From contig CAJXQE010000003.1 of assembly GCA_913058215.1 (NCBI GenBank), forward strand, positions 1 to 64,000: a stretch of DNA of 64,000 nucleotides, written 5' to 3'. A model generated the notes under the pieces. That model searched no databases, was not told the origin of the DNA, and saw nothing but the letters and a program-made list of their open reading frames with translations. How positions within the stretch are numbered: position 1 is the stretch's first letter; each line of letters begins with the position of its first letter. The stretch comes from an uncultured Verrucomicrobiales bacterium (lineage in GTDB: Bacteria > Verrucomicrobiota > Verrucomicrobiia > Verrucomicrobiales > DEV007). Shown here piece after piece: positions 1,201-64,000 of the stretch. A program made the translations under genes and the position numbers.

Positions 1201-1281
1201 TCAAATTGGTGAAATTGGCCCCCGAAGACGCCATTGTAGAATCCCCTGACGTCGTCAGTCTAAGATCGTCGCCGGAATCCC

Positions 1282-2664
1282 ATGAAGCAACAATCCCAGA
1301 GCCTGCAAAATTTCACGAGACGTGAATGGTTACGGGTGGGTGGCTTGAGTTGCTTAGGGCTTGGAGGATCGGCTCTCTACAATCCAGCATCGGCTGCCGC
1401 TCAGGGAACATTCGGACGCGCAAAATCATGCATCATTCTCTTTCTGGCGGGAGGACCGCCTCAGCATGAAACCTTTGATCCCAAACCGTATGCCCCTTCA
1501 GGAGTCCGGGGAGAGTTTGGATCCATTGCGACCAATGTTCCCGGAGTGCATTTCTCTGAACTCCTCCCGAAGACCGCAAAGATCGCCGATCAATTGACGA
1601 TTCTTCGGTCGCTTCACACCGGAGTGAATTCGCATTCTGTGAGCGGGTATCAATTGTTCACCGGCCACACCCACGCTTCGAAAGCTGACAACCCGGCGTC
1701 GAGAAGTGACTGGCCACATCTCGGTTCCTTCGTTTCCCAATTTCGACCCAGCACTCGTTCGCCGCTGAACGCGGTGACCTTGCCGGAACCCATCGTGAAC
1801 AATCCGGGAGTCCTTTGGCCCGGACAGGACGGAGGATTTATGGGACCGTCATGGGATCCGTTTCTTTACAAAATGGGAGCACCGGAAGCCGCCGGTAGAG
1901 ATGGCTTATCGGATACGCTCGCGATTCCGGACAGTCTTTCTCTCGAGCGCCTCGCTTCCCGCCGGAAGTTAATCGACGCCCTCGACAAGGGATTGCAGTC
2001 GGCTCAAAGTGGCGACTCGCTGGAAGGGCTTGAGGAGAACCGGCGACAGGCATTTGAAATGCTGACATCAACAGACGCCCGTCGCGCTTTTAATCTGGCT
2101 GAGGAAACTTCAAAAACTCGCGATGCGTATGGGCATCATAAGTTCGGACAAAGTGTTCTTCTGGCACGGCGTCTTGTCGAATCAGGCGTTCGACTGGTGC
2201 AGGTGAATTTCCCCCGGGAAGCTGGAGATCTCAGTTCCCCAAATCCCCTTTGGGACACGCATCGCAATAACGCAGCCCGATTAAAAAACAATCTCTGCCC
2301 TCCCTTTGACCAGGCATTCAGTGCCCTGATCCTCGATTTGAAATCACGTGGCCTGCTCGATGAAACGCTCGTGGCAGTGTTTGGTGAATTTGGGCGCAGT
2401 CCAAAGATTAACACGAACGGCGGGCGAGATCATTGGGGATCCTGTTTCAGCGGTGTGGTCGCCGGTGCCGGTATCGAGGGCGGCCAGGTTATCGGGGCGA
2501 GCGATCGTCAGGGTGCCTACCCATCCGAACGTCCCATCAGCGGCCCCGAACTTCACGCAACCCTTCTTCATCGCCTCGGGATAGAGCCGAGCAGCCTCTT
2601 TCGCGATCGCCTGGGTCGGCCACTACCAATTTCGGGGGCGAAGCCAATTCGTGAATTGGTTTGA
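1282..2664 (+). CDS. DUF1501 domain protein, Tat-exported
   Basis: This 460-residue protein belongs to the DUF1501 family, a branch of the alkaline phosphatase/sulfatase fold that is abundant in PVC bacteria and has no settled function. The N-terminus carries a twin-arginine signal (RREWLRVGG from residue 13), followed by a hydrophobic glycine-rich segment and an Ala-rich cleavage region. Family landmarks are visible: FLAGGPPQHETFDPKP near residue 55, LVESGVRLVQV near 305, and FGEFGRSPKI followed by GGRDHWG near 375-390. DUF1501 genes usually sit beside DUF1549/DUF1553 cytochromes; here none is adjacent. The next gene is a sialidase-esterase. The ATG at 1282 fits the Tat signal, although no strong ribosome binding site is seen. 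Confidence 0.9.
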   Translation: MKQQSQSLQNFTRREWLRVGGLSCLGLGGSALYNPASAAAQGTFGRAKSCIILFLAGGPPQHETFDPKPYAPSGVRGEFGSIATNVPGVHFSELLPKTAKIADQLTILRSLHTGVNSHSVSGYQLFTGHTHASKADNPASRSDWPHLGSFVSQFRPSTRSPLNAVTLPEPIVNNPGVLWPGQDGGFMGPSWDPFLYKMGAPEAAGRDGLSDTLAIPDSLSLERLASRRKLIDALDKGLQSAQSGDSLEGLEENRRQAFEMLTSTDARRAFNLAEETSKTRDAYGHHKFGQSVLLARRLVESGVRLVQVNFPREAGDLSSPNPLWDTHRNNAARLKNNLCPPFDQAFSALILDLKSRGLLDETLVAVFGEFGRSPKINTNGGRDHWGSCFSGVVAGAGIEGGQVIGASDRQGAYPSERPISGPELHATLLHRLGIEPSSLFRDRLGRPLPISGAKPIRELV

Positions 2665-2785
2665 TCTCAGGCAATTATCTCGTGGATTGGTTCGAGACTC
2701 CCGACTTTTTCGAATCTCTGCGCACCGCAAACAGGGACGGCTTGGCCCTTGGCTCATCGAAGCCGGAGGTTCAGGATCACCAGCA

Positions 2786-4687
2786 ATGAACGCGCTGAGT
2801 GTTTTCCACAATTTGCATTCCAGGATTGCAGCGCTCGTCGGGCCAAACTCTGCTGGAGCATTCCGTCACTCTGAGCCCGGAAGGGCAAAACTCGTCCATC
2901 GATTCGCGGCTATCCAACTCCTCGCGGTCCTGCTCTTTTTCGGCAACCTTCGTGCCTCGGAGGATCAAGCGGTGACTATCGCTGCCGGTCCGATCTCAGG
3001 ACACATTCATCCTTCCATCTGCCGAACGATTGAGGGAACTCTGATCCTTGTCTACAGGGGTGACGGTATATTGATGTGCTCGCGCTCGACGGACGACGGA
3101 GAAACGTGGTCAACACCTGTGCCGATCGCCACCTCAGCAGTGCGCCCGGATGGAATTCGAGAGGTGAAGAAGTTCGAAATCTATCCTGGCACGATCGACA
3201 CTCTTTCCGACAATCAGACACTGGTCACATGGAATTACATCGCCGACGACAAGGCCACGGATGGGTATTACGAGAGGGCCCTTCTCTATAGTCTCAGTTC
3301 CGATCAGGGACTGACTTGGAGCGATCAAAAACTGATCGGTCCGATCGATAGCAAACACCTCGGAGCGGTTCGTCACAATGTGCTCCCCTGGAATGAAGGG
3401 CGCTGGCTACTACCCCTTCGAGTCGGACCGCCGCGGCTGTTTGATTCCAAAACGGGCAAGCTGACCGTGTTTCCGATCACCGGACAAGACGGTAAACAGC
3501 ACGAATTTCAGCAGATCACGCGAACCGCCAAGGGCGGGTTACTGGCGATGGGGCCGGTCCTGTTGCACTCGCAGGACAAAGGCAACAGTTGGACCACAAT
3601 CGAGAATTTCCCTGCTGTCCCGGACAAAAGAGACAATGCCGAAGGACGCTACCTGACGACGCTCACCGACGGACGGGTTCTGGTGACCTGGGGAATCGGT
3701 AAGGACAACAAAGGGCTTCGATACAATCTCTCGGCTGATGGTGGAAAGACCTGGGACGCGGACCGCACAGTAACCCTGCTTCCCGAAACGAGTGTCACTG
3801 CCCGCTACTACTCCGCCCGTACCGTGCAACTCGATGATCGGCACATTGGAACCGTTTTCATGAATCGAGATGGCGTTCACTTTCTGAAGGTGAATCTGGA
3901 TCGATTGCTTCCGGCCAAAGAAGGTCAGCCAGAAATTAAAGATGTCGCATTCAAAGCGACCTGCGATGGTTCCGAGCAGAGGTATGCCCGGATTCTGCCA
4001 GTGGATTTCGAACCCGGAAACCCAGTGGATCTTTTGATCGCTCTCCATGGTCACGGGAGTGATCGCTGGCAGTTTGTGCGGAGTGAACGGCCGGAATGCC
4101 GGGCCGTTCGGGATGTGGCCCGAAGTCGTCGCATGATTCTGATTTCTCCCGACTACCGGGCGAAAACCTCGTGGATGGGTCCGAACGCAGAATCCGACCT
4201 GGTGCAGATCATCGCCGATTTGAAACAGCAGTTCACAGTCAGGCGGGTTTTCCTGAGTGGCGCTTCGATGGGCGGCGCATCGAGTCTGACCTTTGCTGCT
4301 CTCCACCCGAATTTGATCGCTGGAGTCGCTGCCATGAACGGCACGGCGAACCATATCGAATACGATCGATTCCAGGATGCGATTAGGGAATCGTTCGGCG
4401 GAACCAAATCTGAGATCCCGGAAGAATACCAAAAGCGCAGCGCTGAGCTGTGGCCGGATCGCTTCACCATGCCCGTGGCAGTCACGACCGGAGGCAAAGA
4501 CAAAAGCGTGCCTCCGCAAAGCGTGCAGCGACTCGCTGAGAAGCTCAAGAAATCCGGACGCAAGGTGCTCAGCATTCATCGCGAAGCTGGCGGACACTCG
4601 ACGACCTACGAAGATGCAATTGCGGCCATGGAGTTCATGCTACGCGAAGCTGAGCTCGCAGAAGAGGAAGCTCGCCACGCTCAATAA
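2786..4687 (+). CDS. Exo-sialidase-like propeller fused to an alpha/beta-hydrolase esterase
   Basis: This is a secreted two-domain protein of about 633 residues. The first part is a sialidase/neuraminidase-type six-bladed propeller with four Asp-box-like motifs: STDDGETWS, SSDQGLTWS, SQDKGNSWT and SADGGKTWD. The second part is a serine esterase of the PHB-depolymerase/feruloyl-esterase type. It has an oxyanion-loop LHGHGSD and the nucleophile elbow GASMGG (Ser about residue 494), with a late GGHS likely supplying the His. A hydrophobic segment (AIQLLAVLLFFGNLRAS) follows about 40 residues of unusual N-terminus. The ATG at 2786 is preferred over an upstream GTG at 2651, which would overlap the DUF1501 gene by 14 bp. 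The pairing suggests removal of an acyl group and a glycosidic residue from one glycan. The substrate is not deducible. Confidence 0.82.
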   Translation: MNALSVFHNLHSRIAALVGPNSAGAFRHSEPGRAKLVHRFAAIQLLAVLLFFGNLRASEDQAVTIAAGPISGHIHPSICRTIEGTLILVYRGDGILMCSRSTDDGETWSTPVPIATSAVRPDGIREVKKFEIYPGTIDTLSDNQTLVTWNYIADDKATDGYYERALLYSLSSDQGLTWSDQKLIGPIDSKHLGAVRHNVLPWNEGRWLLPLRVGPPRLFDSKTGKLTVFPITGQDGKQHEFQQITRTAKGGLLAMGPVLLHSQDKGNSWTTIENFPAVPDKRDNAEGRYLTTLTDGRVLVTWGIGKDNKGLRYNLSADGGKTWDADRTVTLLPETSVTARYYSARTVQLDDRHIGTVFMNRDGVHFLKVNLDRLLPAKEGQPEIKDVAFKATCDGSEQRYARILPVDFEPGNPVDLLIALHGHGSDRWQFVRSERPECRAVRDVARSRRMILISPDYRAKTSWMGPNAESDLVQIIADLKQQFTVRRVFLSGASMGGASSLTFAALHPNLIAGVAAMNGTANHIEYDRFQDAIRESFGGTKSEIPEEYQKRSAELWPDRFTMPVAVTTGGKDKSVPPQSVQRLAEKLKKSGRKVLSIHREAGGHSTTYEDAIAAMEFMLREAELAEEEARHAQ

Positions 4688-51509: not shown

Positions 51510-53138
51510 CTACGAGTCGATCTCACCCAAGGATGGCGAAATCATTTGCGGCTCGGGAGGTCGGTTTTCTTTATATAGATGCCACACCTGCACAGGCGTC
51601 AGCGCTCCCTCGAATATGTACAGCTCATCGAGATCACCACGGAAGCCAGTGAAGTAACTTTTGGGTTTTTTCCCACCTCCGGCAGCAAATTTCTTTTTTC
51701 CCTGGGCACTCGAGAGATGATTACCTACGACTAAAGAGAGACTTTCCTCACCAGTGCGGGTCTTCACTCTGCCACGCTGAAAGCCGCTCGCGTGCTCAAG
51801 TCGACCGTCAACATAATGACGGATATGGGTAGCTACATCAGCATCCTTGCCCCCAATAAATATACTGACGACATGGTGCCACGTTCCGTCGCGTAGATCA
51901 CGGGTACCATTGACCCAGCCCGGCCCGAAATCGGTTCTTATCGCCCCGGCAACTGAGCCGGGCGACAAAGGCTGTATCCACCCCTTGAGTTTCACCTGTG
52001 GATTCCACGACACTTGCCATTTCCGCGACTCCGAGTTCTGGGCTCTTCCTTTCTGCAATCCCCAGCCGGCCCAGCCATGGGCCTCTCTGTGTGTTGCATC
52101 ACGGGGAATCCGAATCCAGGCGGCTACTGTCCGCGGACGACTGCCTGAAACACCTCGATAAGAAGACTCGAGGAATTCGCCAGTACCGAGAAACCTCAAT
52201 GCATGTCCGCCGCGGGCTCCTTCGATTCGCTCCGGGACCCTACCCGGCAGTCCGGGCTTCAGGCCATATTCAGCAGCGCGATTCGAACCCGATGCGGCAA
52301 AGCGATCGCCCTCTAATTCTTCAAAATTCCAGTGATAGAAAACGACCGGAGCCGGATTCTCAAACTCATCGAGGATAGGGTTTGCGGTTTCCGACGAGTA
52401 AGCCGTCATCGCACCCGAACTCATCGCAACACTCTGCTTTTCTCCCAATTCGCGGATATCGGTTCCGGCGGTAGCGCGGACTCTTCCTTTCACGACCTGA
52501 ACGGTCGATTCCCCATTGCCAACCTCGATCCGGAATTCGGTTCCCAAATCGACGATTTCCCCTTCGGGAGTCAAAACAGTGAACCCTTGACCCGATTCTT
52601 CGAAACGTGCCTGCAGATCCCCACTTTCGAGCCGAATTCGATTGTCATCGATGATCTCAAACACCGACGGACCTTCAATCCTTGCGGTGCCGCCTACATC
52701 GAGCGCTAAAATCACTTTTCCTTTTTCGAGGTGATAGGTTCCGGGCATCAGCCATTCGCCGATTTCGGCAATCCGGTTTCGCTCTAATCCCCAACGCCCA
52801 TCTTCCTCATGAATCACCCGAGCCACTGCCAGCTCTATACGATCTCCCGCAGTCGGCGACCCAAAGTTACTGCCCGTCAACCACCAGCCTGCGGCCAATA
52901 GCGCCAGCGCAGCGGCTATTCCGGTGATGGCTGGAAGCCATTTCCGGTTTACTTTCGGAAAACTGACGACATTTCCTTTCGCCAGCTCTTCCTGCAGTCG
53001 GCCATGGATTTCTGCTGCTGCGACGAATTCCTCGCAAAGCTCAGGTTCAATCAACAAAGCTGCCTGTAGCTCCCGAAGTTCCTCATCAGAAAGTTGTTCG
53101 TCAAAGTAGCGGATCATTAATTCATGCGACGATTTCAT
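51510..53138 (-). CDS. FecR-like anti-sigma factor with LamG domain
   Basis: This 542-residue membrane regulator starts with a short cytoplasmic helical domain (ELMIRYFDEQLSDEELRELQAALL), the part expected to hold the sigma factor. One transmembrane helix follows at residues 67-87. A periplasmic FecR domain (~100-240) contains GGTARIEGPSVFEII, FTVLTPEGEIVDLGTEFRIE and TVQVVKGRVRA. A LamG/concanavalin-like domain (~265-525) ends the protein (VVFYHWNFEELEGD, TVAAWIRIPRDAT, WHHVVSIFIGG, FRGDLDELYIFEGALTPVQV). The LamG part may be the glycan-sensing portion. The start overlaps the sigma stop in an ATGA, and a strong ribosome binding site AGGAGA lies upstream, which fixes the start at 53138. Confidence 0.92.
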   Translation of the reverse strand: MKSSHELMIRYFDEQLSDEELRELQAALLIEPELCEEFVAAAEIHGRLQEELAKGNVVSFPKVNRKWLPAITGIAAALALLAAGWWLTGSNFGSPTAGDRIELAVARVIHEEDGRWGLERNRIAEIGEWLMPGTYHLEKGKVILALDVGGTARIEGPSVFEIIDDNRIRLESGDLQARFEESGQGFTVLTPEGEIVDLGTEFRIEVGNGESTVQVVKGRVRATAGTDIRELGEKQSVAMSSGAMTAYSSETANPILDEFENPAPVVFYHWNFEELEGDRFAASGSNRAAEYGLKPGLPGRVPERIEGARGGHALRFLGTGEFLESSYRGVSGSRPRTVAAWIRIPRDATHREAHGWAGWGLQKGRAQNSESRKWQVSWNPQVKLKGWIQPLSPGSVAGAIRTDFGPGWVNGTRDLRDGTWHHVVSIFIGGKDADVATHIRHYVDGRLEHASGFQRGRVKTRTGEESLSLVVGNHLSSAQGKKKFAAGGGKKPKSYFTGFRGDLDELYIFEGALTPVQVWHLYKENRPPEPQMISPSLGEIDS

Positions 53139-53671
53139 ATCAGTTCTCCTTCCCCGGCTGCTGTCTGCCGCTCGATGCATTCTTTCAACTTCACCCGGAG
53201 GCGGTGAAAAATTTGCTGCAGAGAAGCTTCACTTCGATCCTCCTCCGCCGCGAGGGCTCGAATCGTCTGCCGATCTCCATAATAAGCGCCGAGCCGGCTT
53301 TGATCCTTTCCCTTCAGCTTACCGATGCAATTTCGGAGAGAATCCTGGCGGTCATTGGCTCCGCTAAACCCCACTTGTTTGTCCCATTCCCGGGCAAGAT
53401 GTTCCAGGACCGGGCCATCGCACAGCACGAGGCGGTCGCGGCCAATTTTGCGAAGACATTGTTTCGCCTGGTTCTTTGCGACCCCATAGGCAAATGCCTC
53501 GAAATTTTGAATTTCACCTGCCTTCACCGCTTTCCAAACCCCAAGAACCACCTCCTGAAATACCGCTTCCACATCGGCTTCCGGCGGCAGGAGCATGACC
53601 AGAAACGAGAAAAGAGACGACCTCATTTCCATGATTCGCTTGAGCGCTTCTTCTTCGTTGAAATCTTCCAT
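53135..53671 (-). CDS. ECF sigma factor (leftward operon, first gene)
   Basis: This 178-residue ECF sigma factor has a region 2 with FSFLVMLLPPEADVEAVFQEVVLGVW and NFEAFAYGVAKNQAKQCLRK. Region 4 contains QTIRALAAEEDRSEASLQQIFHRLRVKLKECI. It belongs to the short class of PVC ECF sigmas partnered by FecR-like anti-sigmas. It is the first gene of the leftward operon and overlaps the FecR-LamG gene by an ATGA. The equivalent gene of the mirrored operon starts 496 bp away on the other strand. By analogy with known FecR systems, ligand sensing outside the cell should release the sigma to transcribe this operon or related loci. Confidence 0.92.
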   Translation of the reverse strand: MEDFNEEEALKRIMEMRSSLFSFLVMLLPPEADVEAVFQEVVLGVWKAVKAGEIQNFEAFAYGVAKNQAKQCLRKIGRDRLVLCDGPVLEHLAREWDKQVGFSGANDRQDSLRNCIGKLKGKDQSRLGAYYGDRQTIRALAAEEDRSEASLQQIFHRLRVKLKECIERQTAAGEGELI

Positions 53672-53803: not shown

Positions 53804-54112
53804 TTAGATCTTTCGAACCGGATGAAGGAAAGGCAAACTAAGCTTGTACTTCTTCTTGTCTTTGCTCGTCGAATCATTTCCGTTTTTTCTTTTCACCAGC
53901 GATTTCTCGGTGGCGATGGGATCGGAGTCTCTCCATTCGGCGAGTTTCGCGAGTGGACGATTTTTCATGGATTCGGCTACGTTTTTGTATTCCGGGTTCT
54001 CAATTTCATTCTTCAGTTCGTATGGATTTTTTTTTAGGTTATACAATTCAAACTCAGGCCTGTGATTGAGTTTATGGACCAACGCCTTGGCCCGTGGAGA
54101 TAAAGGTGCCAT
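53804..54112 (-). pseudogene. Sulfatase C-terminal fragment
   Basis: This stretch encodes about 102 residues that look like the end of a heparan-N-sulfatase-type sulfatase: FELYNLKKNPYELKNEIENP, EYKNVAESMKNRPLAKLAEW, then DSDPIATEKSLV. The xLYNLxxDPxExxN pattern and the terminal 'W...D..PIATE' are standard sulfatase endings. The N-terminal catalytic 350-400 residues, including the CxPxR site, are absent. Upstream in the same frame the open stretch is the antisense of the rightward sigma gene and shows no sulfatase signal. The gene was therefore truncated, probably when the rightward operon arose beside it. It ends in a Lys-rich tail and a TAA. Confidence 0.75.
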
Positions 54113-54113
54113 C

Positions 54114-54145
54114 TTTGTGAAACTTTTTTGTAATGATTTCACAAA
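54114..54145. promoter_or_regulatory. 9-bp inverted repeat upstream of the rightward operon
   Basis: TTTGTGAAA (54114-54122) and TTTCACAAA (54137-54145) form perfect arms around a 14-bp T-rich spacer, 21 bp before the sigma-factor start. It could be an operator for the rightward operon or an RNA hairpin at the end of the truncated sulfatase locus. A related CTTTTTTG/CAAAACTTC run overlaps it. Confidence 0.45.
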
Positions 54146-54166
54146 ACTTCGCAATACCCTCATGAA

Positions 54167-54700
54167 GTGTCGGATGAAAACACAGATCGAATGCGTCTTT
54201 TGACGCTGGAATGGACGAAGGCTCAACCAGGTGTGACCCGGTTTATCCGGAGTCTTATTCTCAATCGGGAAGACGCTCAGGATGTCCTGCAGGAGGTCGC
54301 CCTCGCGGTGGTCGACAACTTTGAATCCTATGACCCGGAGCGCCCTTTCGAGGGTTGGGCCATAGGAATTGCCCGCAATCAGCTGCGCGCCCACCTCCGT
54401 AAAGTGTACCGGGATCGGGAAGTAGCCCTCGATGAATCGGTCGATCGTGTCGCGGACGCTTTTCAACGGATTGAACCGGAAATCGGAGATCGCAGGGAGG
54501 CTCTCAACGAATGCCTCCGAAGGATAACCGGGACTAGCCGGAAGATCTTGAACCTTCACTATGTTGATGGGCTGAAACCAGCAGCGATTGGCGGGGAGAT
54601 ATCGAAAAGCGCGAATCATGTCTCGGTTATGCTCCATCGGACGAGATCCATTCTTCGGAAATGTGTCGAGAAAAAGTTGAACCGGGAGGCTTCGGCATGA
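54167..54700 (+). CDS. ECF sigma factor (rightward operon, first gene)
   Basis: This 177-residue ECF sigma factor has region 2 as TRFIRSLILNREDAQDVLQEVALAVV and PFEGWAIGIARNQLRAHLRK. Region 4 is ILNLHYVDGLKPAAIGGEIS followed by NHVSVMLHRTRSILRKC. The start is GTG at 54167, the only start codon with full coverage; an internal ATG at 54191 would trim eight residues. No good ribosome binding site is seen for either. It is the first gene of a tightly packed rightward operon and overlaps the FecR gene by an ATGA. It is homologous to the sigma of the leftward operon, though clearly diverged. Confidence 0.92.
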   Translation: MSDENTDRMRLLTLEWTKAQPGVTRFIRSLILNREDAQDVLQEVALAVVDNFESYDPERPFEGWAIGIARNQLRAHLRKVYRDREVALDESVDRVADAFQRIEPEIGDRREALNECLRRITGTSRKILNLHYVDGLKPAAIGGEISKSANHVSVMLHRTRSILRKCVEKKLNREASA

Positions 54701-56013
54701 AACGTGATTTTGAAAAACAGATTGATCGCTACTTAAACGGCGAACTGGACGAAGACGAAACATTCGAGCTGTTACAAAAGGTCGGGCAGACCGATGAAAA
54801 TGCGGACACTTATTCAAAAGCTTGCATCCAGCATCAACATCTTGAAGAACTTTTCGAAGATAGCGAAGTTCGCGGCGGGGTGTTGCATAAAAGTATACTT
54901 ATGTGGTTGGTTCCAATTGGTGCGATTGCCATCTTACTGATTTTTTCATCCCGGTTGGTTCACAACCCCAAGCCTCCGTTTGCTACTGTAGCTCAGTCTG
55001 TGGGGGCACACTGGGCGACTGGTAATGTCGTCCGGTCGGGAGACGGTGTTGAAGCCCGTCGCTACAAGTTAACTCGCGGACTGGTTCGTTTTGATTTTCT
55101 ACACGGTGCTACCATGACGGTGCAGGGACCGGCTGATTTTGAGATTCACGACGCAATGCATGTTGCCTTCACTTCGGGGATAGCCACCTTCGATGTTCCT
55201 GAGGCTGCGATTGGATTTACCGTCGATACTGAGTCTGCTAATATTATAGATTTGGGAACTGCTTTCGGAATTGCCTGCGGCCCCAATGGTAAAACAGATC
55301 TGAGTGTGTTCGAAGGTGAAGTATCGGTCCATCAGACTAACAAGCCGGAAACTAGGGTGCGGGAAGGCGAATCGGTTCGTGCCGGTGATGAGGTTGTCCC
55401 GGTTGCCTACAATACCGCGACCTTCGAGGATGCCTGGCCCCTTAATTCCGGAGTCCTCCAAACCACAGGGCTCCTAAAATTCGTTTCGCCCGGACCGGGA
55501 TTCACCCCGGGAGCTTTTGAAGATAATCAGCATATCACGGTGTTTTTAGAACGCTCCAAAGCAAAGGTGCCGAAGGGGGTTTTAGTCGATTTAGTCGATC
55601 CCGGGGAGTATAGAAAACTGCGGCGCTCCGAGGGGAAGTCTCTACCTCCGGTAAGGTGGGTTCGCAGCTACCTACTTCAACTCGATCCTGTGGGCGAAAT
55701 GGATAAACACGATCCAGATAAAGTCCGTGTACGAGGGCAAATCACTTTTGACTCTCCTATCGTAGGAGTGATCGCCAGTCATTCCCGACTCCGCGAAAGT
55801 GATATCGCCTTTGGGCATCCCGAAGGCATCTACAAAGATGCACCCCGCGGGGTGGAGCCACCTAAAGCTAAACTCACCGGAGCCACCGGTCGCGACAACG
55901 TGATTTTGACCGGAGATCAAAGGACTCTCATCGTTGATTTTGCTGCGGGGTCCGCCGTTGATCAACTCCGCGTCCTGGTCGAAAACTCAAACAGGTATCA
56001 AAAGAATAAATAA
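54697..56013 (+). CDS. FecR-like anti-sigma factor (rightward operon)
   Basis: This 438-residue membrane regulator has a cytoplasmic N-terminal helix pair (EKQIDRYLNGELDEDETFELL) and a transmembrane segment at residues 67-85. A FecR domain follows at ~95-240 (GATMTVQGPADFEIHDAMHV, FTVDTESANIIDLGTAFGIA, LSVFEGEVSVHQ). The ~200-residue C-terminal part is beta-rich and lacks the LamG jelly roll of the leftward paralogue (FLERSKAKVPKGVLVDLVDP, QITFDSPIVGVIASHSRL, then RTLIVDFAAGSAVDQLRV). The two FecR proteins therefore share the control part and differ in the putative sensor. The start ATG overlaps the sigma stop (ATGA) behind a GGGAGG ribosome binding site; the stop overlaps the DUF1552 start (TAATG). 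Confidence 0.9.
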   Translation: MKRDFEKQIDRYLNGELDEDETFELLQKVGQTDENADTYSKACIQHQHLEELFEDSEVRGGVLHKSILMWLVPIGAIAILLIFSSRLVHNPKPPFATVAQSVGAHWATGNVVRSGDGVEARRYKLTRGLVRFDFLHGATMTVQGPADFEIHDAMHVAFTSGIATFDVPEAAIGFTVDTESANIIDLGTAFGIACGPNGKTDLSVFEGEVSVHQTNKPETRVREGESVRAGDEVVPVAYNTATFEDAWPLNSGVLQTTGLLKFVSPGPGFTPGAFEDNQHITVFLERSKAKVPKGVLVDLVDPGEYRKLRRSEGKSLPPVRWVRSYLLQLDPVGEMDKHDPDKVRVRGQITFDSPIVGVIASHSRLRESDIAFGHPEGIYKDAPRGVEPPKAKLTGATGRDNVILTGDQRTLIVDFAAGSAVDQLRVLVENSNRYQKNK

Positions 56014-57293
56014 TGAAAACACCAACAAGAAGAACTTTTTTGCGAGGAGTGGGCGTCTCAATTGCCCTGCCGGCGATGGAGAGCTTTTCAGCGCCTGCTG
56101 CGAGTACCACCCGAGAGGCTAAACGCTTCGTTTGCGTTGCACCTAACTATGGAGTCTATCCCGGCAATTTCTTTCCGGAAAAGACCGGCGCTGATTATGA
56201 ACTTCCTGTCCTGTTGAAGCCTCTGGAGAAACATCGGAAAGATTTCTCGATTTTTACCAACCTTGATCACCCGGGAGTCGGTGGCGGGCACGGATGCTCC
56301 AATACCTTTCTAAACGGAATGGAATTGAAGGATGCAAAAAAAACTCCGAAAAAGTTACAGTCGCTCGATCATTTGCTTTCAGGGGAAATTGGAAATACTA
56401 CCCGGTTCCCGTTACTAAACCTGGGCTCCGGTGGGACCTCCTGGTCGCGGGCCGGAATTCAACTGCCTGCGCAACTATCTCCGGAGCGAGTCTTTAACCA
56501 ACTTTTTGTTGATGATGTAGTAAAGGTGAAGGCAAAAAACCGGGTTCTTTTAGATGAAGACGCCAGCATTCTTGATGTCGTCAGGGAGGATGCAAAACGC
56601 CTCGCAAAACGGATCTCGAAAACGGATCAGGAGAAACTCGACGAATTCCTCACCTCGATTCGTGGTGTGGAGAAAAAGCTGGAGCGACAGGCCAAATGGA
56701 TTGATGTCGCAAAGCCTGAGATGAACGATTCCGTGATCAGCGGCGATGGCGATGGCGATGATGTGATTGTAGACCTGGAGTATCCCTATAACACGGCGGT
56801 GATGTATGATCTCATGATTCTCGCCCTGCAAACCGATTCGACGCGAGTCATCACCTATGGGCATCCGGGAGGTAACCGGCTTTTTCCTTTTGAGGGAATT
56901 ACGGCCGGATATCACCAGCTGACCCATCACGGAAAACGTCCAGAATACTTGGAATCGCTCACTATCATCGAATCCTTTTACTTGAAGCAATTCTCCCGGT
57001 TTCTCGACCGGATGAAAGAAACTAAAGACGCCAGCGGAAAATCACTATTCGATACGACAGCTATTCTCTTTGGCAGCGGAATGGGGAATGCCGGATCTCA
57101 CTCGAGTCGTAATCTACCTGTCATCGTAGGTGGTGGCGGTATGACACACGGGAAGCATCATCGATTCGAGCGAAATGGTCGGGATGGACGCCCGCTTTCT
57201 GATTTGTTCGTTACGCTTTTACAACAACTTGGCATCGAGAAAGAGAGTTTTTCTACCAGTGCCGGAAACATGAATGATCTGTTGTTAGGATGA
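56013..57293 (+). CDS. DUF1552 domain protein, Tat-exported (rightward operon)
   Basis: This 426-residue protein starts with a Tat-type signal (TRRTFLRGVGVSIALPAMES). Family landmarks are KRFVCVAPNYGVYPGNFF, FSIFTNLDHPGVGGGHGCSN, REDAKRLAKRISKTDQEKLD, EFLTSIRGVEKKL, YHQLTHHGKR, TAILFGSGMGNAGSHSSRN and DLFVTLLQQLGIEKESFS. A short (GGCGAT)3 microsatellite at 56742-56759 encodes an acidic DGDGD loop that is absent from the leftward paralogue. It overlaps both neighbours (TAATG upstream, ATGA downstream), so its expression is tied to theirs. Function unknown as for the family. Confidence 0.93.
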   Translation: MKTPTRRTFLRGVGVSIALPAMESFSAPAASTTREAKRFVCVAPNYGVYPGNFFPEKTGADYELPVLLKPLEKHRKDFSIFTNLDHPGVGGGHGCSNTFLNGMELKDAKKTPKKLQSLDHLLSGEIGNTTRFPLLNLGSGGTSWSRAGIQLPAQLSPERVFNQLFVDDVVKVKAKNRVLLDEDASILDVVREDAKRLAKRISKTDQEKLDEFLTSIRGVEKKLERQAKWIDVAKPEMNDSVISGDGDGDDVIVDLEYPYNTAVMYDLMILALQTDSTRVITYGHPGGNRLFPFEGITAGYHQLTHHGKRPEYLESLTIIESFYLKQFSRFLDRMKETKDASGKSLFDTTAILFGSGMGNAGSHSSRNLPVIVGGGGMTHGKHHRFERNGRDGRPLSDLFVTLLQQLGIEKESFSTSAGNMNDLLLG

Positions 57294-59659
57294 AGTGTCT
57301 ACTAACAATCTTGATTCTCTTTGTATCGGTTGCGTCGCGCGCCGAAGACCTGCCCGGGTTTCTTACCGAATACTGCGTTCGCTGCCACGGCCCGGAGAAA
57401 CAAAAGGCTGACAGGCGATTTGACGGCGTCGAAAACAAAATCACCACGGTTGATCAAGCTGAACATTTCCAGGAGATCCTCGATCAATTGAACCTCGCAG
57501 AAATGCCGCCAGAGGATGAAGATCAGCCATCTCCAAAAGAACTCGCCGAGGTCATCGTTTTTTTGACAGCAAGTCTCAAAGTCGCCCGTGAGCAGGCACA
57601 AACCAGTGGAGGACAGATTACCCTGAGGCGACTCAATCGCGTCGAATATCTAAACACAGTTCGAGATCTATTTTCAATGTGGATGGCTGATTTCGACCCC
57701 ACGACCACGTTTCCAAAAGACGATTCGGTCGAAGGGTTTGATAACGTTGGCAGTGGGCTGGTAACCTCCGATTATCTGCTTCAAAACTACCTCGAAGCGG
57801 CAGGGAAAGTGGCTGACAAAGCAATCCGTCCCGGACCAAAACCGGAGATGATAAATATGCGGTCCGAAGGTGACGAAATACAGGGGAAAGATCACGGTAA
57901 CCGTCGGGATTTCACTCGAATTTTTATTAAAGACCGACAACCACTCGGTATCACGCAACTTTTAAAAAGAAGAATTCGTGAAGACGGAGAGTATGTCATT
58001 CGAGTTAAAGCCCGAGCCTGGAACCGGAAGTCCCGGTATAAAGATGAAGATCTCCGCTACAACTCGGACGAAGCGATGCGGATGAGTATCAGCATCGAGT
58101 CAAAATCACTGGGAAAGACGTCACATCGAATCGTGAAGGAATTCGAAGTTCCGGATGGTGAACCTACAGAGTTTGAGCATCGGCTCTGGCTGGAATCCGG
58201 TTTTGCCTTTCAGGTTCATTGGGCAAACGGCCCCAACGGGTCGACAAAACGGATCATGCGTAAAGTACTTCCCAAGTATACGGATGATGCCATTTATCCA
58301 CTGAGAAACCCGAAACAGATGTATGCCGGATCTGGCCCGGAACTACAGGTTTATTCCATCGAAATAGAGGGTCCGTTTTATGATGAATGGCCATTGCCCG
58401 GTTTTTCGCGATATTTCCCTGATCCCCCGGAAAAACCGGATACCACTTATCTCGATGCCTCAATGAGACGATTGGCGCAACGAACTTTTCGCAGCCCCGT
58501 CGACGATGAGACGATTGCGCCCTATCTTGAGCTTACCCGCCAATACTTTGAGGGAAACGGAGATTTTTGGGCGGCTGCAAAATATGGGGTCAGAGCCCTT
58601 CTAACTTCGCCAAACTTTCTCTACCACGTGGAGGCCGATGAAGAACCCCGCAGTCTCAATGCCTGGGAACTCGCCTCGCGGCTTTCTTATTTTCTGTGGA
58701 GCTCGATGCCGGATGATGAACTGTTTGCCTGTGCTGCTGACAGCAGTCTGCTTAAGCCGGAAGTCTTGCGACAACAGGCTGAGCGTATGCTTTCGGACAA
58801 GCGCTCGGATTCATTTGTTGAAAACTTCGCAGGTCAATGGCTCCAGCTTCGCAAGCTCGGCGAAATGCCTCCGGACCCGGCAAACCACAAGGCTTACTTC
58901 GAAGACAATCTCGAGGACGCCATGAAGAAAGAAACCCTGCTGTTCTTTTCCAAACTATTGGAACAGAACGGCAGCATTCTGAGTTTTATTGATTCAGACT
59001 ACACCTTTCTCAACAAAGCCCTGGCGAGACACTATGGCATTCCTCACCCGGGAAATGATTTCCAAAAAGTATCACTACCCGCTGCTGGTCCTCGTGGAGG
59101 ATTGCTTGGACACGGAAGCATCCTGACGCTGACATCAAACGGTGTAGAGACTCAACCCGTGGTCCGCGGCGTTTGGATCCTTGAAAATCTGCTGGGGACG
59201 CCACCGAATCCGCCGCCACCCGATATCGATCCCCTCGAGCCCGATACCCGGGGTGTCACTACGATGCGCGAATTAATGGAAAAGCATCGGGAAAACGCAA
59301 CCTGCTACGAGTGTCATCGCAAGATTGATCCGCTGGGGCTCGGGATGGAGAATTTTGATCATGTGGGCTCCTGGAGAGACCGTTATCAGAAGAAGTCACT
59401 TATCGATTCAGAAGGTGAAATGGCCGACGGCACTAAGTTTTCCGGAGTGGAGGGAATTCGTGCCTATCTGCTCGATCGCCCGGAGCAGTTCACTCACTGT
59501 CTGACTGAGAAACTAATGGTCTACTCCCTCGGCCGGAGGATTGGATTCACGGACCGGGATGATATCGATGACATTGTGAAGGCAATGCCAGCAAAGAACT
59601 ATGGACTACGGGAACTGATCCAGGAGATTGTGATGTCAAAACCCTTTCAATCAAAGTAA
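57290..59659 (+). CDS. DUF1587/1592/1588/1585 cytochrome-type protein (rightward operon)
   Basis: This 789-residue exported protein has a signal peptide (LLTILILFVSVASRAE) and heme sites CVRCH (residues 29-33) and CYECH (672-676). The domains run PSCyt1, DUF1587 (LRRLNRVEYLNTVRDLFSM), a beta-rich carbohydrate-binding-like insert (DGEYVIRVKARAWNRKSR), DUF1592 (LASRLSYFLWSSMPDDEL, FAGQWLQLRKLGE), DUF1588 (RGGLLGHGSILTLTSNGVE, GVWILENLLGTPPNPPPP) and DUF1585 (LTEKLMVYSLGRRIGFTDR). Many motifs match the leftward gene at 47705-50197 almost word for word. The start overlaps the DUF1552 stop (ATGA), and the stop overlaps the next start (TAATG), so five genes form a continuous coupled unit. Confidence 0.94.
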   Translation: MKCLLTILILFVSVASRAEDLPGFLTEYCVRCHGPEKQKADRRFDGVENKITTVDQAEHFQEILDQLNLAEMPPEDEDQPSPKELAEVIVFLTASLKVAREQAQTSGGQITLRRLNRVEYLNTVRDLFSMWMADFDPTTTFPKDDSVEGFDNVGSGLVTSDYLLQNYLEAAGKVADKAIRPGPKPEMINMRSEGDEIQGKDHGNRRDFTRIFIKDRQPLGITQLLKRRIREDGEYVIRVKARAWNRKSRYKDEDLRYNSDEAMRMSISIESKSLGKTSHRIVKEFEVPDGEPTEFEHRLWLESGFAFQVHWANGPNGSTKRIMRKVLPKYTDDAIYPLRNPKQMYAGSGPELQVYSIEIEGPFYDEWPLPGFSRYFPDPPEKPDTTYLDASMRRLAQRTFRSPVDDETIAPYLELTRQYFEGNGDFWAAAKYGVRALLTSPNFLYHVEADEEPRSLNAWELASRLSYFLWSSMPDDELFACAADSSLLKPEVLRQQAERMLSDKRSDSFVENFAGQWLQLRKLGEMPPDPANHKAYFEDNLEDAMKKETLLFFSKLLEQNGSILSFIDSDYTFLNKALARHYGIPHPGNDFQKVSLPAAGPRGGLLGHGSILTLTSNGVETQPVVRGVWILENLLGTPPNPPPPDIDPLEPDTRGVTTMRELMEKHRENATCYECHRKIDPLGLGMENFDHVGSWRDRYQKKSLIDSEGEMADGTKFSGVEGIRAYLLDRPEQFTHCLTEKLMVYSLGRRIGFTDRDDIDDIVKAMPAKNYGLRELIQEIVMSKPFQSK

Positions 59660-60516
59660 TGAATAAACTACCTTTTATACTTTTGTTCTTTTTGTTTCCG
59701 TATTCCGCTTATGCCGGAAAGGTCGCACCTAACGTAGTCATTGTTTTGAATGAATCAGCCCGGGCTGACTCATTCGGGTGCTACGGATCAGAGAATAAGA
59801 CACCGGTTCTCGATGCCATCGCCGCGAAGGGAGTATACTTTCGGTTTGTCTGGTCTTCGATGGATAGCAAAACCTCCGAACAAATGTTAAGATCCGGTCA
59901 CTATCCTTTTCGTACCGAAGTAAAGACCGATTCATTCAAGTCGCTCGGCTACCATTCTTCGACGATCGAACAAGCCATCAAGGGCGAAGCAAAGCCACCA
60001 TTTCTCGCGATCCATATACTGAAAGGTTCTTCCGTGAAAGCATTGGACAACTTCGTAGAGCCCCTCGCCAAACTCAAAGACACGCTTCTTATCATATCCA
60101 GTCTAACAGGTTCAGGAGAATCAAACAGTGCAGTCAGTGTCCCTATGGTCATCTCCGGACCGCCGGTTCTCAATCCAGGCAGGGAATGTTGGGACCTCAT
60201 AAATATCACCGATTTTTCTCCGACCCTGGCCGAAATAGTCGGACGTGATATCGACAGGAAACACGATGGGAAATCCTTTCTTCCCAGTCTGCAGGACAGC
60301 GATGATCCCTTCCAAAAACGAAATTGGATCTACACACAATCCGGCGGATCCTGGATGATCAGGGATTGGGAAAACGTTCTCTATAGTGACGGGAATTTCA
60401 CCCGAATTTCAGAAGACAACCTGTCCACAGAAAAAGTCAAAAAGACAGACAAGATTGCCCCTCATCGAAAAGAGCGATTGGAAATGCTGGTAAACCGACT
60501 CCGGGACAAGAGTTAA
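59659..60516 (+). CDS. Sulfatase-fold pseudoenzyme
   Basis: This 285-residue exported protein (signal FILLFFLFPYSAYAG) has a recognisable sulfatase N-terminus: PNVVIVLNESARADSFGCYG, TPVLDAIAAKGVYF and MLRSGHYPFR. It has lost the chemistry. Where active relatives carry CxPxR, it reads SKTSE (residues 70-74), so the nucleophile, Pro and Arg are all missing. The metal-binding DD pair is Glu32-Ser33. It is also some 200 residues shorter than a normal sulfatase, because the middle of the fold (the HxPH, KWH and DNG regions) is reduced. ITDFSPTLAEIVGRD and a DWE-containing end are kept. The intact reading frame and TAATG coupling argue for a functional non-catalytic binding role, not random decay. 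It occupies the sulfatase position of the mirrored operon. Confidence 0.88.
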   Translation: MNKLPFILLFFLFPYSAYAGKVAPNVVIVLNESARADSFGCYGSENKTPVLDAIAAKGVYFRFVWSSMDSKTSEQMLRSGHYPFRTEVKTDSFKSLGYHSSTIEQAIKGEAKPPFLAIHILKGSSVKALDNFVEPLAKLKDTLLIISSLTGSGESNSAVSVPMVISGPPVLNPGRECWDLINITDFSPTLAEIVGRDIDRKHDGKSFLPSLQDSDDPFQKRNWIYTQSGGSWMIRDWENVLYSDGNFTRISEDNLSTEKVKKTDKIAPHRKERLEMLVNRLRDKS

Positions 60517-60574: not shown

Positions 60575-62014
60575 TTATTTTTGGGGCACCCCAGGCTGAG
60601 TCAGTTGGTATTCCTTCCGGTGTAGTCGGCTATGATTGTCGAGACCAAGCCATATCGGTGCGCGCTCGAAGCTGTTGCACCAATTTCCGTGTGCCTCCAT
60701 CATGCGGGCTACCACAGCGGGGTTCTCGGGGGCTAAGTCCGTGCGTTCGGCGGGATCGCTAACCAGATCGTAGAGCTGTGGTGGTTGGTGTGTGGTGAAA
60801 ATCAGCTTCCAGTCCCCATCGCGCATGGCACTGCCGCTTGGCATCAAGCGCCAGAATAGCTGTTGGTGTGGGCGTGCATCGTGCATTTCGCCATTTAGAT
60901 AGGGCAGCAGGTTTACGCCATCATAAATGACGGGTACTTTTTTGCCGCGTGCAGTTATCGTCTCGGGCTCGAAGGGTTTTCCACCGAGTGCCATCATCGT
61001 TGGCATAATGTCAAGAGAACTCACTGGGTGTGGGTAGTCTCCGGCCTCCACATCTAAGCCGTGAATAAACATGGGGACGCGGATCCCGCCTTCCCAGAAG
61101 GTTCCCTTATGCCCCCAGAATGGCGCGTTGAGGGCGTGGACCGTTTCGGTGCTGCCTCCGTTGTCGTTCATGAAGACGATAACGGTATTGTCCGCTTCTC
61201 CGGTTTTCTCAAGGTGCTCCATCAATCGGCCTACGTTTTGGTCAAGGCAATCGACCATCGCGCAGTAGGTGCGTCGACCCTTTGGCTCGACGTCTGGATA
61301 GCGGGCGATGTCCTCATCCTTGGCTTGTAATGGGCCGTGCGGGCAATTGTAGGCGAGGTAGACAAACCAGGGCTGTTCGTCGTTTTCCTCGCGCCGGCTA
61401 ATATAATTCATCGCATCTTCGGTAAGCCAGTCGGTTAGGTACGGCACCTCTACCTCGTCGAGCTTTTTGCCCATGCGCTCAAGCCCGAAGTTGCGATACC
61501 AAATATTTTCCATGGGCTCCAGTGTCACATGGTAACGGTGGCCGCCTCCGCGCATGCCGAAGAAATAATCGAAGCCGCGTTCCGTGGGATAAAAGTTATC
61601 GGTGTCGCCCATGTGCCACTTGCCGATAGCGGCGGTGTGATACCCGGCTTCCTGCATCCGGTTGCCCAGAGTCAGTTCGCGACCGGGGAGGCCGATCTTC
61701 TCGGGACGGAGGTGTGGGCCGCCACGAGGATTGGTTTCGAAGCCGAAGCGCTGTTGGTAACGCCCGGTTAGCACCCCTGCACGTGACGGGCCACAGACAG
61801 ATGCCGTGACGTAAGCTTGTGGGAAGATCACGCCTTCCTTTGCCAGCTTATCCAGGTTGGGGGTTTTGATCTGAGACGAACCCGTGTAGCCCAGGTCTCC
61901 GTAGCCCATGTCGTCTGAAAAGATGAAAACAATGTTCGGCTTTTCAGAGGCCTTGCTCGCTAGAAGCGGCAGGGCGATAAGTGGTGTGAGGAGAAGTATG
62001 AGTGCTTTTTTCAT
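60575..62014 (-). CDS. Secreted sulfatase (arylsulfatase A-like)
   Basis: This 479-residue sulfatase has a signal peptide (LILLLTPLIALPLLASKAS), PNIVFIFSDDMGYGDLGYTG with the calcium-binding DD, CGPSRAGVLTGRY as the formylglycine site, AIGKWHMGD, and FMNDNGGSTETVHALNAPF with the late Asp/Asn ligands. It ends with LYDLVSDPAERTDL and a C-terminal extension (IWLGLDNHSRLHRKEYQL). All catalytic residues are present, in contrast to the pseudoenzyme directly upstream in coordinates, with which it is convergent (58 bp between stops). The frame is open 14 codons further upstream, but ATG 62014 sits directly before the signal peptide. Substrate unknown. Confidence 0.95.
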   Translation of the reverse strand: MKKALILLLTPLIALPLLASKASEKPNIVFIFSDDMGYGDLGYTGSSQIKTPNLDKLAKEGVIFPQAYVTASVCGPSRAGVLTGRYQQRFGFETNPRGGPHLRPEKIGLPGRELTLGNRMQEAGYHTAAIGKWHMGDTDNFYPTERGFDYFFGMRGGGHRYHVTLEPMENIWYRNFGLERMGKKLDEVEVPYLTDWLTEDAMNYISRREENDEQPWFVYLAYNCPHGPLQAKDEDIARYPDVEPKGRRTYCAMVDCLDQNVGRLMEHLEKTGEADNTVIVFMNDNGGSTETVHALNAPFWGHKGTFWEGGIRVPMFIHGLDVEAGDYPHPVSSLDIMPTMMALGGKPFEPETITARGKKVPVIYDGVNLLPYLNGEMHDARPHQQLFWRLMPSGSAMRDGDWKLIFTTHQPPQLYDLVSDPAERTDLAPENPAVVARMMEAHGNWCNSFERAPIWLGLDNHSRLHRKEYQLTQPGVPQK

Positions 62015-62156
62015 GATGACGATCTTTTGAGCGAGAAGCCCTCCAAGTGCACCCAACCTATTTGGTTAGTTTGTAGGTTTCAATTCGCCATACCTAAACG
62101 CTCGGGGGGGGTGGAGGGGATTACACTTGATACAGGGACTTTATGAAACCCATAAG

Positions 62157-63479
62157 CTAAGCCAATAATTCTCTTAGCGGCCCTTTTCCGGTATCGTATT
62201 TTTCATAGGCGCCTCCCAGATTGAAATGCTCAACAGGGTGACCCGCCGCTTCGAGTAAGGTGGCATAGAAGCTGTTGATCGGGCGATCATTTTCGATTTT
62301 CATATAGTGACCTTCCTGCATCGTTCCTCCAAAATTACCCAGAGTCATAAAGGGCCAACTTGCGCCTTTGGTGTGCTGTTTATCAGCATTGTTACTGGTA
62401 TAAACAATCAAGGTGTTATCCATCATGGTGCCATTGCCTTCCGGCGTTTCCTCAAGGGCCTGGACCAGTTTCGACAACATTCGCATGTTGTATTGGCGAA
62501 TTTTTGTCCAGATATTGGATGTCATCGATAAGTGGCCCAATGAATGCCCCCTTTGATCGATGCCTAAGCCCTCCCATGAACCATAGAATTCGCCGCAGCC
62601 TGAATTAATCGTGGCCACATTCGTGAGGCCCGCTTTCAGTGCCGCAATCGTCAGATCAAGCATAGCGTCATGCCAATCTGTTTCATGTTGGGGGGCTGAG
62701 TATTTTTCGTCAAATTCAGGCATGTAGGTTTTGAGACTGTCTGACATGGAGCTGACACTGTCCCGGAATGTGCTTATATCGCTATAAGGATTCAATTTTT
62801 CCCGACCACTCTCTGGTAAGGTTCCAGCGCTTTCGGCTGAGGTCTTGGCGATAAAATCCAACATCTTAGAATTTTCATCGTAAGTCTTTCGTTGCTTGCC
62901 AGTGGCGACAGATCCAAACATGAGCCGGTATAGAAAGGTTGGGTCACAGATCATGGACGCCTTATCCCCGGGTCCCCAGGCAGAGGTTGCATGGAAAATG
63001 GGAACTTGTTTCATCCGATTCAGCGATTCCATGCCCACACTCAAAAGAGGCACAGGCGCCTTGGGTAGCACCTTGCTCAATGCGCAATCAATGGTGATGT
63101 CAAAGGGGGTGGACTTATTTCTTCTGTAGCCACCCAGACATCCATAGTAAGCACTGTGAGCCGGGCTGGTGTGCTTGCCGTGCAGGCCCTGAATTATCGT
63201 GAGTTTGTCACGGTGAGGCGCTAAAGGATCAATAAAAACCGGGAGATCTTCTGATTGAAGTGATTTGCCGGATCTAATTCCTTTGACTGCGCAATTCGCA
63301 TCACTGAATCCCTGAGACTGCAGGAAAAACACAACTCTCTTGGGCTGCCTGCCACCTTGGGGCTGACTCACCTTTTTGTCCTCTGCCAATGCAGTGTAAA
63401 AGGGAGCTGCCGTGCTCGCTCCGGCTGCCGCACCGAATCTCTTAATGATGTCTCGTCTGTTTAGCGTATTTGTTTTCAT
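62157..63479 (-). CDS. DUF1552 domain protein, exported (3' pair)
   Basis: This 440-residue DUF1552 protein is related to the gene at 16011-17333 and shares the runs [44 protein letters not shown] and [20 protein letters not shown] with it. The N-terminus has a Tat-like NRRDIIKRFGAAAGAS signal. Gene order differs from the other pairs: here the DUF1592 gene is upstream and its stop overlaps this start (TAATG), whereas in the other sets DUF1552 comes first. The sulfatase 62014-60575 follows on the same strand 142 bp downstream. Function unknown as for the family. Confidence 0.93.
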   Translation of the reverse strand: MKTNTLNRRDIIKRFGAAAGASTAAPFYTALAEDKKVSQPQGGRQPKRVVFFLQSQGFSDANCAVKGIRSGKSLQSEDLPVFIDPLAPHRDKLTIIQGLHGKHTSPAHSAYYGCLGGYRRNKSTPFDITIDCALSKVLPKAPVPLLSVGMESLNRMKQVPIFHATSAWGPGDKASMICDPTFLYRLMFGSVATGKQRKTYDENSKMLDFIAKTSAESAGTLPESGREKLNPYSDISTFRDSVSSMSDSLKTYMPEFDEKYSAPQHETDWHDAMLDLTIAALKAGLTNVATINSGCGEFYGSWEGLGIDQRGHSLGHLSMTSNIWTKIRQYNMRMLSKLVQALEETPEGNGTMMDNTLIVYTSNNADKQHTKGASWPFMTLGNFGGTMQEGHYMKIENDRPINSFYATLLEAAGHPVEHFNLGGAYEKYDTGKGPLRELLA

Positions 63480-64000
63480 TAGTTTTGTGCGGGTTTACGA
63501 TAGAGAAATGAGTCTGAAGTAAGCAGTGAGATAATGAGGGCCTTCATGCTCCCCTCATTATCTTGATATGCCTTATGCGCAGCCTTGAGGGTTGGAGCAT
63601 CATTAACCGTTTCATTACGGCCCATCCAGTAACGGAAGGCGTGCCTCACAAAAACCTGTTCCACGTATTCACTATTGGCGAGGCGATGGATAAGTTCAAA
63701 AGCGTCTTCAACCTTACCATCCAGTTCCTCCACACCACTGGCGATAATCTCCCCTCTGGCATCAACAGGATTGCCAAATTCATCGACTTGTTTCCCGTTT
63801 TTGATTTTTCGAAATTTGCCGACATGGTTGAACATTTCAAACGGCAGCCCGAGAGGATCCATTTTCTGATGACAACGCCAGCATTCACTCTCTCGAGTCA
63901 CCCGCATACGATGACGTAATGATTCTTTGGGTTCATCGGGTAAAACTGCATCGACTGTGATCGGCACTTCAGGCACGCCGCCACCTAGCAACCGCTCTCT
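63479..64000 (-). CDS. DUF1588/DUF1585 part of a DUF1592-type cytochrome protein (5' end beyond window)
   Basis: Only the last 173 codons are in the window; the gene continues past base 64000. The visible part holds the end of DUF1588 (GGGVPEVPITVDAVLPDEPK, MRVTRESECWRCHQKMDPLG with heme-c site CWRCH) and DUF1585 (FVRHAFRYWMGRNETVNDAP, SLLTSDSFLYRKPAQN). It is a close relative of the DUF1592 protein at 13432-16014, whose end reads [20 protein letters not shown]. The start codon cannot be given. The stop overlaps the DUF1552 start in a TAATG. Confidence 0.93.
   Translation of the reverse strand, partial: RERLLGGGVPEVPITVDAVLPDEPKESLRHRMRVTRESECWRCHQKMDPLGLPFEMFNHVGKFRKIKNGKQVDEFGNPVDARGEIIASGVEELDGKVEDAFELIHRLANSEYVEQVFVRHAFRYWMGRNETVNDAPTLKAAHKAYQDNEGSMKALIISLLTSDSFLYRKPAQN

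Follow-up and report, generated by a model that had tools for sequence, protein, structure and literature searches.

The last gene of a DUF1552-DUF1592 operon in this uncultured verrucomicrobial bacterium resembles an S1 (formylglycine) sulfatase and lacks every residue with which such enzymes act, raising the question of whether it is a gene in decay or a protein kept for something other than catalysis. The window, meaning the whole stretch of 64,000 nucleotides analysed, carries this pseudosulfatase as an intact reading frame of 285 codons, the ATG of which overlaps the DUF1592 stop codon as TAATG (Table 1); an earlier note on the sequence had described both the open frame and the overlap correctly. 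The N-terminus (MNKLPFILLFFLFPYSAYA, followed by G) is predicted, by eye, to be a Sec signal peptide, as that note had also proposed. Residues 24 to 88 match the Pfam Sulfatase family PF00884 (E 1.9e-8, 34.4 bits against a cut-off of 25), and residues 158 to 225 match SGSH_C below the cut-off of that family (E 1.8e-5). Many PDB sulfatases also match by sequence, and the protein was placed in the sulfatase fold on its PF00884 match and sulfatase-like structure. AlphaFold models of the pseudosulfatase and the DUF1552 protein are of low confidence (mean pLDDT 49 and 43.5), and a Foldseek search with the former, which ranks S1 sulfatases first and carrageenan sulfatases best, is weakly consistent with that placement. 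At least 150 PF00884 matches and 35 matches to the FGE domain were counted in the genome, an abundance indicating that the dead copy is not due to a genome-wide loss of sulfatase use.

Table 1. Features of the operon and of the former active site, in window coordinates.
Feature	Position	Strand	Remarks
ECF sigma factor, operon gene 1	54167..54700	+	TIGR02989 above cut-off; equivalent in G017 and G011
FecR-like anti-sigma factor/regulator	54661..56013	+	PF04773 just above cut-off; equivalent in L037, L039 and L065
DUF1552 (HXXSHH) protein	56013..57293	+	PF07586, E 1.7e-72; overlaps both neighbours
PSCyt1-PSD protein (DUF1587/DUF1595/DUF1592/DUF1588/DUF1585), 789 aa	57290..59659	+	Pfam; c-type haem motifs
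Pseudosulfatase, 285 aa	59659..60516	+	S1-sulfatase fold, predicted signal peptide, no catalytic residues
Asp69 codon, family-invariant	59863-59865	+	directly before the SKTSE codons
SKTSE codons, residues 70-74	59866..59880	+	in place of the formylglycine motif CxPxR

Five closely packed genes, with an overlap at every junction, make up the operon, and the pseudosulfatase gene stands at its end. The family of the sigma factor (TIGR02989) would suit a bacterium of the Verrucomicrobiales. The DUF1552 protein carries an N-terminal twin-arginine signal (TRRTFLRG), and its C-terminal part aligns with the sulfatase core in a single hhalign comparison (85% probability, E 5.9e-6, about 100 columns), which suggests that DUF1552 may be a distant fold relative of the sulfatases. 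Promoter and terminator scans gave results no better than those from shuffled sequence. Several neighbouring loci are of a related kind. Adjoining the operon upstream, an open reading frame on the minus strand (53804-54817) contains the C-terminal fragment of an ordinary sulfatase at 53807-54130 (SGSH_C, E 7.6e-5), including PEFELYNLKKNPYELKN; the remainder of the frame is antisense to the sigma factor gene, and the fragment is a truly truncated sulfatase remnant. A sigma-like and FecR/LamG-like pair, recognized by eye, lies directly upstream on the opposite strand (53135-53671 and 51510-53180). On the other side, a convergent second operon of the same kind (60575-64000, minus strand) encodes a DUF1592-type protein, a sulfatase with an intact CGPSR motif and a Tat-signal protein resembling DUF1501/DUF1552.

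The best comparison for the pseudosulfatase is with its active S1 orthologues (PF00884; SulfAtlas S1) from genera g2 and g47, which occupy the same operon position, have a signal peptide, and share its N-terminal core strand and C-terminal subdomain at about 31-33% identity over the alignment. Against these proteins, all catalytic and metal-binding positions of the window protein are replaced or deleted. CTPTR has become SKTSE and the metal-binding DD pair Glu-Ser, both as the earlier note had read them; GDNG has become SLTG, so that the Asp and Asn metal ligands are Leu and Thr; the His after GKW is Thr; and the catalytic Lys of GKW, the His of THGPH and a second Lys fall within deleted stretches. 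The formylglycine Cys and the motif Arg are missing with them, and none of the marks of an S1 enzyme (CxPxR or SxPxR, the Asp-Asp and Asp-Asn ligands, the catalytic Lys and His) is found in the window protein. According to the SulfAtlas survey, conservation among 4058 S1 sulfatases is 99% for the motif Arg, 99% for Asp317, 99% for His211 and 94% for Lys113 (PMC5066984). The window protein is also about 145 residues shorter than its active orthologues (428-431 aa) through some nine separate deletions (21, 8, 13, 45, 24, 7, 16, 2 and 15 residues), most of which take out active-site lobes, the last being the C-terminal tail. The shortening of about 200 residues first estimated is correct only in comparison with typical paralogues, for instance the neighbouring 493-aa sulfatase.

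This loss is shared by a family of orthologues. The C/S-x-P-x-R motif is absent from all seven readable members of the pseudo family, which have S, G, S, A, E, E and E where the Cys was. SKTSE, for which the earlier note had proposed to seek homologues, is private to the window copy; other members have GASTV, SVSTA, AKLSR or ENLSK instead, and since the stretch varies among members it is not a new functional motif. The residue before the lost Cys is Asp in 7/7 readable members (Asp69 in the window), whereas the active orthologues have Ile there and none of 46 active sulfatases compared has Asp; the SulfAtlas catalytic pattern disallows Asp directly before the Cys (PMC5066984). Of the residues invariant among the pseudo members, 38 fall within the last 135 positions, R235-D236-W237 and D264-K265 among them, compared to 21 within the first 150. 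The alignment thus places the strongest constraint in the C-terminal half, while most of the deletions take out active-site lobes.

The Ser at the Cys position of the window protein could be taken as the sign of an enzyme of different activity, with another nucleophile in an alkaline-phosphatase-superfamily fold; that superfamily is promiscuous and includes members with Ser and Thr nucleophiles. However, the variation at this position among members, together with metal ligands that are not consistently kept, makes such an enzyme improbable. A new nucleophile was considered and rejected, as the position varies and offers no residue constant across the pseudo family.

A search of the window's family with the pseudosulfatase found seven further genomes, and a search of the same family with DUF1592 found exactly the same set. 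DUF1592 also detected eight more genomes, which belong to another family within the order. The orthologous DUF1592 clade spans 16 genomes of the order, with close orthologues at 62-72% identity to the window copy and the next group at about 43%. Wherever the stretch is readable, a sulfatase-fold gene directly follows the DUF1592 gene of this clade (the contig ends there in G363 and G036), and its strand, order and start inside the DUF1592 stop codon are conserved, the exception being a 3-base gap in G017. In genera g2 (G033-G036) and g47 (G227, G410 and the contig-truncated G413) this gene encodes a sulfatase of 428-431 aa that retains CTPTR and all ligands. Motif-less sulfatase-fold genes stand in its place in G008 and G011 of the window's genus (334 aa) and in G337, G234, G230 and G356 of genus g42 (305-306 aa). 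Counting the window's own, seven species carry the Cys-less version, of 285-334 aa. The window gene has its closest relative in an eighth copy, from G017 of the same genus, with which it shares 57% identity across the C-terminal 121 residues; this copy was left out of the readable set, a 100-N assembly gap spanning its active-site region. The presence of syntenic orthologues with the same loss indicates that the window pseudosulfatase is not a product of chance.

Beyond this clade, a pseudo-family profile run over 386 genomes of the order found no copy elsewhere, and the only hits of the window protein in a scan of genome contigs were sulfatase-like loci of actinobacteria that have an N-terminal stretch in common with it. 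In G591 and G695, from another family of the phylum with a more distant DUF1592, the next gene is not a sulfatase; in these closest outgroup loci (L077 and L078) an unrelated gene of about 515-572 aa follows. The G017 locus (L037) also carries an ordinary NCTPTR sulfatase (3132-4532, minus strand) 16 bases after its pseudosulfatase, followed by a longer reading frame with a sulfatase-like beginning (1277-3127, minus strand), an arrangement showing that dead and active sulfatases can share one operon.

Selection on the pseudo form was estimated pairwise by maximum likelihood and over trees. For G008 and G011, dN/dS is 0.118 (likelihood-ratio test against 1, 56.5), with 0.031 and 0.047 for the neighbouring DUF1592 and DUF1552 genes; three pairs within g42 give 0.27-0.32 (LRT 12-16) with neighbours at 0.05-0.13; and the active orthologues of G227 and G410 give 0.123, near the 0.10 and 0.11 of their neighbours. 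For pairs of the window with a relative, dS is saturated in most cases; dN/dS was taken instead from the tree-based fit, and the pairwise values were left out. Over trees, dN/dS is 0.12-0.14 for the pseudo family (LRT 321), compared to 0.08 for the active family, 0.065 for DUF1592 and 0.07 for DUF1552, and about 0.05-0.11 for the C-terminal set of the window, G017, G337 and G008 (LRT 155); the fixed-omega tree fits also had kappa fixed at 2, so that these LRT values are approximate. The pseudosulfatase is under purifying selection as a protein, less strictly than its active orthologues or its operon neighbours. Its evolutionary rate, 2-4 times that of those neighbours, would be compatible as well with an accessory gene under partly relaxed constraint.

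The faster evolution, the stepwise deletions and the truncated sulfatase remnant just upstream could also be read as those of a decaying gene that happens to be unbroken. This was the alternative that the earlier note had proposed to recognize by an absence of orthologues and a dN/dS near one; orthologues are instead found in three lineages, with dN/dS of 0.12-0.32 and neutrality rejected in three sets. Frames remain open in all readable copies, from seven species at near-saturated synonymous divergence, where about 10 stops would be expected under neutrality, and in neutral simulations of the window frame about 11 stops had accumulated at one substitution per site, with none of 1000 runs intact. 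The start-stop coupling has been retained as well, and decay is very improbable. About as hard to credit is an effect in cis, in which the coding region would protect or stabilize the operon mRNA at its 3' end, or help to terminate DUF1592 translation; the last position in the operon and the start-stop coupling would suit it, but the low dN/dS reflects selection on amino acids, and the invariant residues are concentrated in a protein subdomain distant from the overlap. Orthologues sharing the loss, together with purifying selection, are what distinguish a pseudoenzyme from a pseudogene, and the description of a sulfatase kept in an operon and, with all catalytic and metal-binding residues lost, apparently catalytically dead has held up.

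Unrooted, the DUF1552 plus DUF1592 tree agrees with the sulfatase tree in placing the window, G017, G008 and G011 on one side and the active g2 and g47 members with the pseudo g42 members on the other; this agreement indicates that the operon was inherited as a unit. Full support is given to a sister relation of the active operons, which come from two families, and since the subtype does not follow the family, an old paralogy or operon transfer is implied. The best DUF1552 plus DUF1592 tree, in which the outgroup branch is long, implies three independent losses of activity, and a single-loss topology (tree 8) is not rejected (p-AU 0.156). The pseudo members have Asp69 in common, all lack both the GGKWQ segment and the C-terminal tail, and S148, S214, D215 and N222 are fixed among them, features that lean towards a single loss, although polarity or convergent trimming could also explain them. 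The number of losses may accordingly lie anywhere from one to three.

We favour, at a rough probability of 0.6, a conserved pseudoenzyme that would act in the periplasm as a non-catalytic partner of the DUF1592 cytochrome, the DUF1552 protein, or both. Its ancestor would have been an active S1 sulfatase, with its gene at the end of the operon, from which the active site was probably lost through point changes and deletion of the active-site lobes while selection kept the alpha/beta core and C-terminal subdomain. Once exported, the protein may help one or both of these partners, DUF1592 being co-translated with it and DUF1552 exported by the Tat route, to assemble, stay stable or dock; the putative contact surface is its conserved C-terminal half, and the ECF sigma factor and FecR-like genes would switch on the whole unit together. 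From linkage only, we infer this partnership with DUF1552/DUF1592. A rather doubtful variant builds on the hhalign match: the pseudosulfatase would pair with DUF1552, as a distant sulfatase-fold relative, or with DUF1592 as a regulatory or structural subunit. If so, the active enzyme encoded in the sister operons would have served from the outset as a structural subunit, with a catalytic activity that came to be dispensable.

The earlier note had offered two roles for a pseudoenzyme, scaffolding of the DUF1592/DUF1552 complex and binding of a sulfated glycan, and strict linkage makes the first the likelier. In the second, the dead sulfatase would still bind its former substrate and present it to the other products of the operon. 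Descent from sulfatases would suit this, the active orthologues being plausible carbohydrate sulfatases, as would the carrageenan sulfatases matched best by the low-confidence model; moreover, PSCyt and sulfatase genes adjoin in verrucomicrobial genomes, and some PSCyt proteins carry carbohydrate-binding modules (PMC5615132). However, the sulfate subsite (formylglycine, Lys, His, Arg and metal) is gone, the lobes flanking the pocket are deleted, and the pocket residues are the least conserved, with no former ligand position constant across the pseudo family. The sole constant residue nearby is Asp69, and an Asp in that place, beside the pocket, would be unfavourable to sulfate. With the pocket itself lost, glycan binding is less likely than a partner role and is retained as a minor possibility.

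Predicted inactive S1 homologues have a precedent in related phyla: nine Planctomycetes and Lentisphaerae sequences without the motif Arg may be inactive (Barbeyron et al. 2016, PMC5066984). As far as the available text of that study goes, they are reported as lacking the Arg and no link to DUF1592 is described, whereas the window family lacks the whole active site, has a shortened chain and is under measured selection. The operon partners, for their part, are of the PSCyt/PSD kind, families that are numerous in planctomycetes and verrucomicrobia, of unknown function, and have sulfatase genes as frequent neighbours (PMC5615132). The literature searched did not yield a conserved pseudosulfatase family, a non-catalytic sulfatase fixed as a third partner of PSCyt/PSD, or a seemingly fully dead sulfatase that is conserved, under selection and fixed in one DUF1552-DUF1592 operon for which active sister operons exist.

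For sulfatase-rich genomes, the finding is a caution that PF00884 counts include non-enzymes. For the operon family, active and dead sulfatase forms within one clade make a natural experiment, in which the features that the dead form retains (the C-terminal half, Asp69 and the start-stop coupling) point to what its partners need.
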